Assembly: GCA_013331625.1 (NCBI GenBank)
Contig: DUGC01000051.1
Location: 14,234-31,578 of the forward strand
Length of the DNA: 17,345 bases
Direction: 5' to 3'
From: Candidatus Iainarchaeum sp.
Lineage (GTDB): Archaea > Iainarchaeota > Iainarchaeia > Iainarchaeales > Iainarchaeaceae
Both the position numbers and the translations under genes were made by a program. Each line of letters begins with the position of its first letter. The stretch's first letter is position 1. Positions 3,249 to 17,345 of the stretch are shown in pieces. The notes below the pieces were generated by a model. That model saw only the letters and a list, made by a program, of their open reading frames with translations, had not been told where the DNA came from and made no database searches.

Positions 3249-4097
3249 TTATGCATGGAAAAGCCGCCTGAAAAATTCTCTCCTGCTTTGCGGTTTTGGC
3301 TTTGTTGGCTCTCTTTTCGCGGGAAATTGCACAGGTGAAGTTTTTTTGCCCGTAATCACAGCGTTCCTGTCAATTCGGAGTTCAATTATCCTGTCCGGCT
3401 CTTTTATCCAGCGTTCCAATCTGTTTTTCCGCAAATGCTTCTCTCTTGCCTGTTGATCCATCAGCATTTTTTTAAAGCCGTCATAGTGTCCCCTCCCCCA
3501 CACAATACCAATTGTTGGCTTTCTGCCAACTGTTTTTGCTAGTTGCGGTGCAACCACGGCTTCTGCTTTATATGCAGTCACCGCTTCCCTTGCTCTCATT
3601 ATGCCTTTTCCTGCCATTATTCTTGCGGGCAGGTGAATCATTTTAATTATAAGGGGATTTTTTATTTCCCCTTCAAGGTTGAGTGAATTTATGAACGGTT
3701 TATAACCAATAAGGGAAGTGCCTGCTGCTATCCCTGCTGCCTTTTTCAAGAACTTTCTTCTGGGCAGTTTAGCTTGGAGTGATTTTGATAAGGTGGCTGC
3801 TCCTGTGACAAGTGGTATTGCATGGCCGAGTTTAGCTCTGATCTCTGTGAGTTCTGTGACATCTCGGGCATCAGTAATCCAGATTTGCGCGCCGTCTCTT
3901 GCATAGTGCGCAACAAGGTCCCTTACCTGCACCGGCCGTGTGAAGTGGTCATTTGGAATATCTGACTGTGACGGGGTTCTAAGTTCGACAATGAGGCCAT
4001 CCATCGCGATTTTTGGAAAATCCTGCGGCCTGTGGTGGTGTCCATACATGAGCACATACTTTGCATTGAGCGTTTCCACAAGTTCCCACATGGCCAT
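3249..4097 (-). CDS. Double-GxxH protein of TIKI/TraB/EreA-like type, with Tat-like motif
   Basis: The 282-residue protein has GHHH at 19-22 and GRGH at 201-204, plus a VELRT segment (E38) after the first motif and an Arg-rich MRAREAV (167-173) before the second. This order (GxxH, Glu, Arg, GxxH) is the hallmark of the TIKI/TraB/EreA/ChaN-like superfamily, some members of which are metal-dependent hydrolases or proteases. The overall match is divergent. Inside the protein, PRRKFLKKAAG (112-122) is followed by a short hydrophobic stretch, like a twin-arginine signal in the middle of the chain. The C-terminus, SRREFFRRLF, repeats that motif style. A TATA box at 4113-4123 places transcription start within the first codons, so translation begins at the ATG at 4097 or, six bases on, at 4091. 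Substrate unknown. Confidence 0.55.
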   Translation of the reverse strand: MAMWELVETLNAKYVLMYGHHHRPQDFPKIAMDGLIVELRTPSQSDIPNDHFTRPVQVRDLVAHYARDGAQIWITDARDVTELTEIRAKLGHAIPLVTGAATLSKSLQAKLPRRKFLKKAAGIAAGTSLIGYKPFINSLNLEGEIKNPLIIKMIHLPARIMAGKGIMRAREAVTAYKAEAVVAPQLAKTVGRKPTIGIVWGRGHYDGFKKMLMDQQAREKHLRKNRLERWIKEPDRIIELRIDRNAVITGKKTSPVQFPAKREPTKPKPQSRREFFRRLFHA

Positions 4098-8173: not shown

Positions 8174-9637
8174 TTAGTATTTTCCCTTCTTCCACTTCCT
8201 GGCGCCAAAGCCCCTGTTTGCGCCTGCTGCGTCGTCCCGTTTGCCAAATGGTTTCCTGCCCTTATCAGGCCTGTCCCCGCCGCCTTCCCTTCTGCCGCCC
8301 CGGTCCCCATAAGGCCTTCCAAATCCTTCCCTTGCGCGATTTTCCCCGCCAAAACCAGTTCTTCCCCGCGGCCTCTCATCCCTTGCCCCAAACTTTCCCC
8401 TTCCGCCCTGCGGGCTGAGACGGGGCCTTCCTTCCCCGCCTCCTTCGCGCGAAAACGTCCTTCTCTCATCATTTCTCCTGAAAGATTTCCCCTGCCCGAA
8501 TTGTGGCCTGCGGCCTTCCCTTGCGCCAAACCCGCGTCCCTCGCCTTCAAATTTCCTGCCTCCAAACGGCTTTCTCTCGCTTCTGCCTTCAAACCGCCTG
8601 CCGCCAAAGCCGCTTCCAAAATCCCTGCCTGCTGGCCTTTCCCTTCTTCCAAAGTCCTGCTTTGCAGCCCTTATTGCGCCTTCAAAGTTTTTCCTTCCCT
8701 CAACCCTGTTGCCTTTCCTCTCAAACCCGCGCTTCTCAAACCTTTCCATCGCGGGGAGTTTAGGCTCCTGCCCGCGCGCTTTCATAGCATCATATTTTTC
8801 AGTGGGGGCCTTTGTTTCCTTGCGCGGCTTCTTTTCCGCCCCATGCAGCTGCTTTGCCCGCCCTTCTATGCCCCGGGCCAGCTGCTCTCCCTGGTCTTTT
8901 CCGCCAAAGTAATCGATTTTTGCCGCAATTGCAAGCTTTGATGCTATCGTGCGGCAAAGCCTTCCCTTGTCTTCCTGCTTTGCCGCCTTAATGAGCGGGT
9001 GCTGGTAGAGGTAGCCGTGCTTTGGGCTGCTTACCCCTTTTTTGAAATGCAAAAACAGCGCCTTCTCAGCTCCAATGACCTGTATTGTCGATGCAGGCAA
9101 AAGCGCAAGCCTTCTCTTGCTCCCTGCCTTTGCCAATATCTTTGCCCCGATCACAGGGCCTGCTACTGCGCAAAAATTAGGCATCTCGCGCTTCATTGTC
9201 TGCTCAAGGTACTTTGATAAATACTCCCGCTCCTGCCGCAGGTTCATGCAGTTGAGTGCAAGTGCCCTCATCTCTGCCATGTCAGCGTCCGAAACCGATG
9301 AGCCTATTGATTTTTGCGCTGCCTGAAAAATTCCTGCTGCAAGCTCGTCATTGTCAATTTGCTCCTTCACTTTTGCCTGAGTGAAGCTTTCCCTTTTCCC
9401 AAGGGCATTCACAAGCTTTATGTAATGGTCATTGTCCGCAACCATCTCATCAAGTTCGGGGAAGTGCACAGCGTGCCATTCGCGCAGCTGCTCAATTAGC
9501 AGGTTTGCAATAGGGTCGAGGTCTTCCAAGATATTGACTGATTTTATTATGTGCACGTCCTTTTCCTCGTATTTTTCCTGCACCTTTTTTTTTGCAGCGT
9601 CAATAAACTTGCGCCTCATTTCCTCAACCCTGTCCAT
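8174..9637 (-). CDS. nop5: Nop5/Nop56-58 family protein lacking the N-terminal domain, with an Arg/Gly-rich tail
   Basis: Nop5 is the scaffold of archaeal C/D RNPs, bridging L7Ae-bound guide RNA and fibrillarin. Residues 1-60 match the start of the central coiled-coil domain (MDRVEEMRRKF, then LREWHAVHFPEL at 51-62). The Nop domain is intact, with FCAVAGPVIGAKIL (155-168), LPASTIQVIGAEKALF (180-195), SPKHGYLYQHPLI (204-216) and KLAIAAKIDYFGG (234-246). The usual N-terminal domain of about 120 residues, which binds fibrillarin, is missing; an in-frame TAA directly before the ATG rules out a longer start. From about residue 298 to 487 the protein is a repetitive Arg/Gly/Phe-rich tail (RGFGAR, FGGR, FEGR units). 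A GGAGG Shine-Dalgarno lies 9 bases before the ATG. The start overlaps the glyS end by 14 bases. Confidence 0.93.
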   Translation of the reverse strand: MDRVEEMRRKFIDAAKKKVQEKYEEKDVHIIKSVNILEDLDPIANLLIEQLREWHAVHFPELDEMVADNDHYIKLVNALGKRESFTQAKVKEQIDNDELAAGIFQAAQKSIGSSVSDADMAEMRALALNCMNLRQEREYLSKYLEQTMKREMPNFCAVAGPVIGAKILAKAGSKRRLALLPASTIQVIGAEKALFLHFKKGVSSPKHGYLYQHPLIKAAKQEDKGRLCRTIASKLAIAAKIDYFGGKDQGEQLARGIEGRAKQLHGAEKKPRKETKAPTEKYDAMKARGQEPKLPAMERFEKRGFERKGNRVEGRKNFEGAIRAAKQDFGRRERPAGRDFGSGFGGRRFEGRSERKPFGGRKFEGEGRGFGAREGRRPQFGQGKSFRRNDERRTFSREGGGEGRPRLSPQGGRGKFGARDERPRGRTGFGGENRAREGFGRPYGDRGGRREGGGDRPDKGRKPFGKRDDAAGANRGFGARKWKKGKY

Positions 9638-14912: not shown

Positions 14913-16049
14913 TTATCCGTCCCTTTTTTCCCGCTCCTTCCCGTGGCGCAGCAGATGCTCTTTTATAGCATGGTGCTTGTGGTATGACTTGTTGATAAGC
15001 TGCAGCTTTTCCATTTCCCCCTCAAGATGCTGGATCTTTTTCTCACGTGCTGCAACCGTGTCGCGCAGATGCGAGAGCATCTGGTTCTTTTCATGGATGT
15101 CGCGCCGCGCTGCGGAGATTTCGCGCTCGTGCTTTTGCTCAAGCTCGTTTCGCGCCCCTATCTTTTCCTCCTGCATCGAAATCAGTTCCTTTGAGTATGT
15201 ATTGCGAAGCTGCACTGTGTCATGCTCGATTTCCATGAGGACTTTTTTCGTGTAATCGCGCTCCTTTTTGAGCACTGTTACAAGCTCGAATGTCTTTGCC
15301 GTGAGCTGGGCTTCAATGTCCTCAACGCTGCGCACGTGCTCGCCAACCCCCTGCAGCTGCCTCTCAAGCCTTGCCATGCTCTCTGTTGCCTCCTCAAACA
15401 TCCTTCGCGTTATCGCTGTCCTTGATTCGAGCTGCCTTGACGCCGCGTTCAGCTCGTTTTCTATGTCCGTTGCGGATTCCTTTTCAGCAAGGCCTAAAAA
15501 CGAGTTCTTCCTGTTTTCCTCATACTTTTCCCGCAGGTCCGAGAGTTCCTTTTCCTTTTGCTCTAAAAGCGTGATTATGTTTGCCTGGCCTGCTTTTGTG
15601 CTAAGCGTGCTGTCGCGCTTGCGGTCAAATACCCGCAGCCTTTCAGCCATGTAAGAACCCTTTAGCAGCGCGGCAAGGGTCTTTTGCTCAAGGTCGGCAT
15701 AAAGTTCGGGCACCGTGATGGTTTGCGCGAGCACATGGATCCCCTGCTCCTTGATCTTTCCTGTGCGTGCCTCCTCCATCTCACGGTTCCTTTTGAGCAC
15801 CCCGATAAGCTGTGAGAGCTCCCCGATTAGGCCTTTGAGTTCGGGCTTTCCCGCTTCGGGGCGCATTTCAAGCCCGGTCTTTGCGTCCCTGAAAAGCTGC
15901 AACAGCTGCTCTAGGAGGGGTATTATCCCATTAAGGTTCAGTATGAACGATTGCCTTGAGTATTCCCCCCAGTGGCGTGCCGTGGCCTTTTCACGCGCGG
16001 CCAGAACCGACTGCTCTATGAGTTCACAGATGTGGGCGAGTTCATGCAT
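14913..16049 (-). CDS. Long coiled-coil protein
   Basis: The 378-residue protein has a helical N-terminal part (about 1-110) and then extended heptad-rich segments from about 150 to the C-terminus, full of Glu, Lys, Arg, Gln and Leu with hardly any Pro or Gly. Cysteine is nearly absent and there is no membrane segment. It therefore looks like a cytoplasmic rod or scaffold of SMC-arm or spindle-like type, but it has no ATPase head. The C-terminus is very basic (HAIKEHLLRHGKEREKRDG). I recognise no family. The longest frame starts at 16064, but the TATA at 16073-16081 fits the ATG at 16049 (28 bases). Single-gene unit, convergent with the lumazine-like gene. Confidence 0.8.
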   Translation of the reverse strand: MHELAHICELIEQSVLAAREKATARHWGEYSRQSFILNLNGIIPLLEQLLQLFRDAKTGLEMRPEAGKPELKGLIGELSQLIGVLKRNREMEEARTGKIKEQGIHVLAQTITVPELYADLEQKTLAALLKGSYMAERLRVFDRKRDSTLSTKAGQANIITLLEQKEKELSDLREKYEENRKNSFLGLAEKESATDIENELNAASRQLESRTAITRRMFEEATESMARLERQLQGVGEHVRSVEDIEAQLTAKTFELVTVLKKERDYTKKVLMEIEHDTVQLRNTYSKELISMQEEKIGARNELEQKHEREISAARRDIHEKNQMLSHLRDTVAAREKKIQHLEGEMEKLQLINKSYHKHHAIKEHLLRHGKEREKRDG

Positions 16050-16072
16050 GCTAGCATATGGCATCTACCTGT

Positions 16073-16187: not shown

Positions 16188-16334
16188 TTGAGGAAAAAGA
16201 GGATATGGGCAGTCTTATTGCGCTTAATCTCTATTACTATAATTTTTGGTATTTTTTGGCTTTGGGTACTGGTCATGGAATTGTGCCGTGCTATTCCATG
16301 CGAGCCATGCGCGCCCCCTTTTCTCTTGCCCTAA
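16188..16334 (+). CDS. Possible 48-aa membrane protein with CxxC, antisense to the sigma-like gene
   Basis: From a TTG start the plus strand reads MRKKRIWAVLLRLISI, then a strongly hydrophobic helix (IIFGIFWLWVLV) and a CRAIPCEPCAPP tail with three cysteines. This resembles a real single-helix protein: positive N-terminus, helix, Cys-rich end. A TATA-like AAATTTTAACC at 16152-16162 lies about 31 bases before the TTG. Against it, the last 111 bases are antisense to the end of the sigma-like gene, the start codon is weak and no family is known. It may be a chance shadow. Confidence 0.25.
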   Translation: MRKKRIWAVLLRLISITIIFGIFWLWVLVMELCRAIPCEPCAPPFLLP

Positions 16335-17003
16335 TTGTCTGATGTGCCTGTTAATAACCTGTGTCGCAATTCCTTTGAGGAATTGGGAAATGCCGCCATG
16401 TTCTTTGGGGTTATATGCGTCAAGGGCCTCCCATGCCCTTAAGGCCACGTTCTGGAGAACATCTTCCCAGTCTTTTCCCTTGTACTTCTGCTGCACAAGT
16501 GCCTTAATTTGCGCATAGTATCTATCAAAGGCCCGCATTTTTTGTTCTTCGCGTATGGCGTTCGTGGCCTTCAATGCCCGGTAATCGATTCCATACTTGC
16601 GGAACCATGCGTATTCTCTTGCAGCCCTTTGCGCCAGCAGGGCTACGAAGACGTTTTGGGGGGCAATAGATGGTATGTAGAACGCAATCCTTTGCATGAC
16701 CTGCTTGCGGACAAATTTTCGAAACTCCGTGCTTTCAGTGCCAAAATGGTGGCCCGAAATGACTCTTTCAACTTCTTCCCTGTTCAATTGGAATATTGCC
16801 GCGCACTCCCGGACAGGCAATGGTTGGACTAAGTCGAGATGATATTTTTCCCTGATTTTTTGCAGCATGGAAGGGCTAAGGCCGCGTGCATTCCCGATGC
16901 TATAGCCGATTTCGGGAAGCCTTGGTCTTGCAGTGGCTGATACGTTTTTCACAACAGTTATTCTTGTAGGCGTTCCGAAGACTTGCTGTGATATTTGTAG
17001 CAT
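16224..17003 (-). CDS. Sigma-70 region-2-like protein (probable C-terminal part of a split gene)
   Basis: Residues about 157-230 of this 259-residue reading match sigma-70 region 2: RYYAQIKALVQQKYKGKD, then WEDVLQNVALRAWEALDAYNP, then GISQFLKGIATQVINRHIRQ, like the DxEDlxQExFLxxwxxxxxFdp...FxxxLxxIAxNxxxxxxR pattern of ECF and related sigma factors. Region 4 is absent: the protein ends about 29 residues later. The N-terminal half has another likely helix-turn-helix (PLPVRECAAIFQLNREEVERVISG, split here as PLPVRECAAI and FQLNREEVERV). The frame stays open to 17135, upstream of the first ATG, and the bases before that ATG encode HKQIIELLKNTPLTM, half of a helix-turn-helix. So this is probably the continuation of the upstream winged-helix frame. 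Confidence 0.65.
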   Translation of the reverse strand: MLQISQQVFGTPTRITVVKNVSATARPRLPEIGYSIGNARGLSPSMLQKIREKYHLDLVQPLPVRECAAIFQLNREEVERVISGHHFGTESTEFRKFVRKQVMQRIAFYIPSIAPQNVFVALLAQRAAREYAWFRKYGIDYRALKATNAIREEQKMRAFDRYYAQIKALVQQKYKGKDWEDVLQNVALRAWEALDAYNPKEHGGISQFLKGIATQVINRHIRQLGQEKRGRAWLAWNSTAQFHDQYPKPKNTKNYSNRD

Positions 17004-17290
17004 TGTAAGTGGTGTGTTTTTAAGCAGTTCAATGATTTGTTTGTGTTGGCCGGGTGAAATGGGTGAGGGCGGCCTCTTTTCACTGGGAGTATTGTGCCTT
17101 CTTTTTCCATGGCAGCAATATTGGGGTATGCACCCTCATGCGGCACGTTGGCGAGTTTTGCAATTTGCTGGATCGTAAGGCCCGGATTTGTGGTGATAAT
17201 CTGCTTTATCTTATTGCGGAGCGCAACATTCGGTGGGACGCCCCCTCCGTGCGCTGCTTTAGGCGCAGGTATTTCACCTGCTTTCACCAT
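16958..17290 (-). CDS. Winged-helix protein (probable N-terminal part of the sigma-like gene)
   Basis: Residues 22-73 form a helix-turn-helix with wing: VALRNKIKQIITTNPGLTI, then QQIAKLANVPHEGAYPNI, then AAMEKEGTILPVKRG. This resembles small archaeal wHTH domains used for DNA binding. After about residue 75 the reading turns into His/Asn/Lys-rich sequence unlike a domain. In the -1 frame a second, similar helix-turn-helix runs on into the sigma-like protein. I infer one gene with tandem wHTH modules and a sigma region-2-like end, broken by a single-base change around 17045-17090. A TATA-like ATATTTATATG (17306-17316) or GATTAAAAC (17320-17328) precedes the ATG at 17290. Confidence 0.7.
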   Translation of the reverse strand: MVKAGEIPAPKAAHGGGVPPNVALRNKIKQIITTNPGLTIQQIAKLANVPHEGAYPNIAAMEKEGTILPVKRGRPHPFHPANTNKSLNCLKTHHLQCYKYHSKSSERLQE

Positions 17291-17305
17291 ACTGCGGATA
17301 AGCCC

Positions 17306-17328
17306 ATATAAATATGACCGTTTTAATC
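17306..17328 (-). promoter_or_regulatory. Promoter region of the winged-helix/sigma-like gene
   Basis: Two TATA-like elements lie on the minus strand before the ATG at 17290: ATATTTATATG (centre about 21 bases away, slightly close) and GATTAAAAC (centre about 34 bases away, giving a leader of about 8 bases). I cannot decide between them. Confidence 0.4.
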
Positions 17329-17345
17329 CCGTGAGTTGTGCTATC

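Follow-up and report, generated by a model that had tools for sequence, protein, structure and literature searches.

Transcription initiation in archaea depends on TBP, TFB and often TFE, and Rinke et al. reportedly found sigma factors in archaeal single cells in 2013. A 2026 review states that archaeal initiation does not need a sigma factor (PMC12993045). Another paper describes a sigma-70 family in DPANN archaea, fam00359, which is prevalent in Woesearchaeota and for which the authors excluded mis-binning (PMC8204110). The clamp coiled coil of RNA polymerase is bound by sigma in bacteria and by TFE and Spt5 in archaea (PMC3382729). In ECF (extracytoplasmic function) and other sigma-70 factors, region 2 (PF04542) is followed by region 4 (PF04545/PF08281). 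A 17,345-nucleotide stretch of Candidatus Iainarchaeum sp. (contig DUGC01000051.1, positions 14,234 to 31,578; hereafter the window) contains a gene for a protein that shares region 2 with these factors, as judged from its sequence and from its predicted fold, but differs in having helix-turn-helix (HTH) modules ahead of region 2, no region 4 and probably a second region 2-like domain. By description only, it shares with fam00359 the occurrence of sigma-70 homologues in DPANN genomes, whereas HTH modules in front are a feature of the window protein and are not described for fam00359 in the available part of that paper. The window encodes a real and unusual protein with a sigma-70 region 2 domain (sigma2), new in architecture among archaeal sigma-70 homologues, for which the mechanism given below is a proposal. 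Among the matches listed from the open-licence literature, which does not hold all that is in print, no title or abstract describes archaeal sigma2 proteins that are HTH-first or tandem.

The first-pass annotation placed sigma region 2 in the C-terminal part of the protein, and the segments EDVLQNVALRAWEALDAY and FLKGIATQVINRHIRQ indeed lie in frame, letter for letter, in the open reading frame (ORF) 17003..16224. Pfam Sigma70_r2 matches amino acids 159-224 of this ORF (E 3e-7), and its 30.6 bits exceed the gathering score of 24. In agreement with this, NCBIfam sigma70-ECF matches at E 2.1e-6, albeit below its own cut-offs, sequence profile comparison matches sigma factors only, and structure prediction gives the sigma2 fold, four fold-comparison rows at rmsd 15-19 Å being disregarded as meaningless. 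With the window protein as sole query, a search of PDB sequences yielded one chance match and no sigma factor. The domain is therefore sigma2 by homology to sigma region 2 and by predicted fold; neither a missing profile match nor an unrelated fold was encountered when the window ORF and its intact relative P0002 were examined. As the annotation had also stated, region 4 is absent: Pfam finds no match to it in the window protein, P0002 or a third member, P0003. The Sigma70_r2 match is followed by 35 residues in the window protein and by 36 in P0002, and P0003 ends nearby in the alignment. Since P0002 and P0003 stop at about the same alignment position, the absence of region 4 is not due to the frame change in the window gene described below. 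None of the three members has a region 4 C-terminal of region 2, and an ordinary ECF sigma factor was rejected because region 4 is lacking.

Out of roughly 5.8 billion proteins, a search returned the window protein (P0001, which stands for five sequences in three contigs) and P0002, a 394-residue protein with 53% identity encoded in a single uninterrupted frame on contig CABMIU010000048.1 of an uncultured archaeon, next to ORFs read by eye as archaeal uS15 and eS1. P0003, 410 residues long and 28% identical to P0002, comes from a Candidatus Diapherotrites contig. A two-row profile run against the 75 genomes of the order Iainarchaeales at E 0.001 gives four matches: both of the query members, P0003, and one hit in genome G020 that covers sigma2 only. 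A C-terminal sigma2 without region 4, the order that the annotation had proposed to look for in DPANN genomes, is common to all three members. A viral origin was rejected, as a scan of 175 viral stretches matched by pattern contained no relative.

The sigma2 gene is read from the minus strand where contig C2 ends (C2:31578, which is also the window end); the genome has 1.43 Mb in 123 contigs and a completeness of 86.75%. Two minus-strand frames are involved: frame A is open over 17344..16961, and frame B is open over 17135..16227 and contains the above ORF, which runs from the ATG at 17003 and has 259 amino acids. TBLASTN aligns P0002 in two pieces, one in frame A (35% identity, E 1e-4) and the other, amino acids 111-389, at 17087..16254 in frame B (51%). 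Because intact P0002 aligns across both, frames A and B form one gene with a change near 17060-17090; they were analysed separately. No canonical slippery site is seen by eye in 17060..17090, and the change is an indel, an assembly error or a decayed copy. Position 17290, taken by the annotation as the start, is merely the first ATG of frame A. Since this frame is open as far as the contig end, the true start lies beyond the contig. The split alignment to P0002 thus points to a frame-changed window copy without its N-terminus, whose relatives display the full design.

In this design, HTH-like modules precede sigma2, region 4 is missing, and the relatives are single-frame (Table 1). The first module is supported by 46% identity between amino acids 1-26 of frame A and amino acids 86-111 of P0002 (E 0.001, one comparison) and by Pfam HTH_17 and HTH_IclR, both below cut-off; the second matches TrmB with 20.5 bits, below the cut-off of 25.6. 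Pfam HTH matches are below cut-offs throughout in the window protein and P0002 and number zero in P0003, and structure matches to HTH were obtained for one module. The annotation's N-terminal modules are supported as HTH-like modules, though not specifically as winged helices. A second, degenerate sigma2 domain (sigma2') is probable upstream of sigma2. When the middle region was compared by hhalign with ten sigma proteins of the classic type, sigma2 matched very weakly (probability 0.7%) and region 4 not at all, and a relocation of region 4 to the front was rejected.

Table 1. Features of the sigma2 gene, in window positions.
Feature	Positions	Strand	Evidence or remark
First HTH-like module, frame A	17267..17344	-	P0002 alignment; truncated by contig end, true N-terminus lost
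Second HTH-like module, frame A	17072..17215	-	TBLASTN of P0002 amino acids 69-116; Pfam TrmB
Stretch of passage from frame A to frame B	17060..17090	-	TBLASTN of P0002, itself single-frame
HTH module, frame B	16920..17066	-	
Probable second, degenerate sigma2-like domain (sigma2')	16596..16817	-	
Sigma-70 region 2 domain	16302..16571	-	Pfam match 16332-16529, NCBIfam, predicted fold, sequence profile
C-terminal tail and protein end	16227..16301	-	Conserved F...P(K/R)PK; stop 16224-16226; without region 4

Sigma2 proteins are found elsewhere in the order. At E 0.01, Sigma70_r2 matches 25 of 93 genomes, all 25 within the 75 of the order, and 21 exceed the cut-off; at E 0.001, it matches 22 of the 75 order genomes versus 14 of 314 other archaea, where contamination may play a part. 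ORFs were extracted for all 38 matches at E 0.01, and 35 were scanned with Pfam (all except L011, L019 and L022). Region 4 follows region 2 (E 0.05) in 19 of the 35, which is the ordinary design, and several remaining proteins have at least 90 residues after sigma2, leaving room for a diverged region 4. Fewer than 40 residues, too few for region 4, follow sigma2 in six of the 38 (the window protein, P0002, L021, L023, L032 and the 5'-cut L022), a count from which L005, cut by a contig end, is excluded. A profile of these six and P0003 matches 14 of 389 genomes, seven of them by construction and 13 in the order. The new matches include two near-identical genes in G020 and two of three tandem paralogues (303-311 amino acids) in G049. 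By eye and alignment, the G049-type proteins have HTH, sigma2-like and region-4-like parts. In their relative L072, Pfam detects region 4 (E 3.7e-4), and L071 gives no Pfam match to region 2 or region 4; a search with G049-type proteins returned at least five proteins among the best 8000 candidates, one named Candidatus ainarchaeum. The order-wide set thus includes other HTH-first forms besides the window family. In a tree of 37 sigma2 domains (the 47 proteins minus eight that lay outside the alignment and minus L022 and L079), eight of 33 inner branches are well supported, and a single origin for all 13 rows labelled HTH-first is neither rejected (p 0.35) nor shown. The HTH-first and other labels were assigned by eye; L025 and L055 also carry HTH-like parts ahead of sigma2 but stand outside the HTH-first group throughout.

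Several of these loci have features of their own. The three G049 paralogues (L088 2962-5903; 303, 311 and 307 amino acids) lie between genes that look aRF1-like and TruD-like by eye. The sigma2-HTH genes of G020 (L086 5577-6296 and L087 4673-5620) are 96-98% identical at distant sites and differ in the number of TPEQRSE repeats, and their DNA identity stops close to the gene ends. Also in G020, a 198-residue HTH-sigma2 gene (L061 4891-5487) has an ATG overlapping the stop of a prs-like gene (by eye) and is followed by genes named by eye as pyrB-, pyrI- and pyrD-like, making it a possible pyrimidine regulator. A 518-residue ORF in G032 (L058 533-2086) joins homing-endonuclease-associated repeats (PF18780) to sigma regions 2 (19.5 bits, below cut-off) and 3 (27.9 bits, above). 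The window's own genome has a second Sigma70_r2 match (L005, 8-208 of G000:C59; 22.9-24.3 bits), cut by the contig end.

The genes around the window gene are archaeal, as annotated: fibrillarin and the 4-phosphopantoate--beta-alanine ligase subfamily (PRK13761) match above cut-off, and aNOP56 and pantoate kinase match below theirs. In this genome, 86.75% complete, a single TFB ORF and a single match to the N-terminal part of Rpo1 were found, and the Rpo1 clamp sequence looks archaeal by eye. The aNOP56-like protein (8174-9637) has a long Gly/Arg-rich tail, the NCBIfam match covering amino acids 4-293 of 487. The 282-residue ORF at 3249-4097 has an internal RRKFLKKAAGIAAGTSL stretch resembling a twin-arginine signal by eye, and the 383-residue protein downstream of the sigma2 gene (14913-16064) looks coiled-coil-like by eye and has no Pfam match above cut-off.

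It is proposed that DNA sites are selected by the HTH array, which would thereby replace the promoter-selecting role of region 4 in bacteria. Sigma2 may dock where TFE and Spt4/5 bind the archaeal RNA polymerase, at its clamp coiled coil, and docked sigma2 could help recruit or open the polymerase, or displace TFE and Spt4/5 at chosen promoters. Sigma2', which has lost the contact signature, is probably a spacer, dimerisation or partner-binding domain. The likeness to archaeal TFE and to the Spt5 NGN domain (PMC3382729) would lie in this docking site, and no relationship is claimed. There is about an even chance that the protein is a chromosomal archaeal HTH array-sigma2'-sigma2-short tail protein that also works by such clamp docking. 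Of the core polymerase contacts of region 2.2 (D..QE), the Asp is present in all three members, the Gln in the window protein only, with His in P0002 and P0003, and the third position is N, D and N. In the wider sigma2 set, 12 of 14 HTH-first proteins and 21 of 25 others have the Asp. This count covers 39 of the 47 proteins (missing are L072, which is HTH-first, and L058, L025, L019, L053, L055, L005 and L029), includes rows that seeded the profile, counts both L080 and L082, identical over sigma2, and takes the 5'-cut L022 as other.

Several points weigh against this proposal. The Gln is found in only four of the 14 HTH-first proteins versus 21 of the 25 others, and since it is rare there and His takes its place in P0002 and P0003, contact with the polymerase may be altered or absent. 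Sigma70_r2 scores 18.9 bits in P0002, below cut-off, and has no match in P0003; the family has three members among the matches listed; and its window copy is frameshifted. It is possible, though doubtful, that the sigma2 fold has found a new use that does not involve RNA polymerase, be it as a DNA-binding helix bundle, a decoy or a partner-binding domain, in a multi-HTH regulator of some other kind. The sigma-like domain of PhyR in bacteria acts as such a decoy or partner-binding domain. The loss of the Gln in P0002 and P0003, the degenerate state of sigma2' and the archaeal nature of the polymerase identified in the genome are consistent with reuse, but sequence profiles match sigma factors only and the Asp is retained in all three members. 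Moreover, PMC8204110 reports that anti-sigma factors were not identified in DPANN, so that a decoy would have no known target. Either way, sequence comparison and predicted fold support the annotation's suggestion of a rearranged sigma-like regulator or a reused region 2 fold.

A selfish or decaying gene, namely a sparse and mobile sigma2-HTH gene of which the window copy would be a pseudogene, is unlikely. The small membership, the neighbours that differ by eye between members, the frame change and the near-identical G020 pair, whose identity ends near the gene ends, point in this direction, but the viral scan gave no relative, and P0002 and P0003 have uninterrupted reading frames and, at 28% identity, still have blocks and the tail motif in common, indicating selection. 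A horizontally acquired sigma factor of ordinary bacterial type, or a bacterial contig placed in the wrong bin, is highly improbable: classic proteins with regions 2 and 4 exist in the order, but the window protein has HTH modules in front, no region 4 and archaeal neighbours, and no bacterial relatives were found among the proteins scored (869 candidates; the best 8000 in another search).

Returning to clamp docking, a broader and only tentative idea is that Diapherotrites have a class of initiators in which an HTH array places one sigma2 domain, or two, on the archaeal polymerase clamp, so that a bacterial initiation module would work without region 4 in a TBP/TFB system. A rearranged sigma2 lacking region 4 and joined to DNA-binding modules, beside one archaeal polymerase, offers a concrete test of bacterial sigma2 on the archaeal enzyme and lets one ask how factors exchange on the clamp coiled coil. 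Its domain order, unused by classic bacterial sigma factors, may represent a hybrid mode of gene switching.
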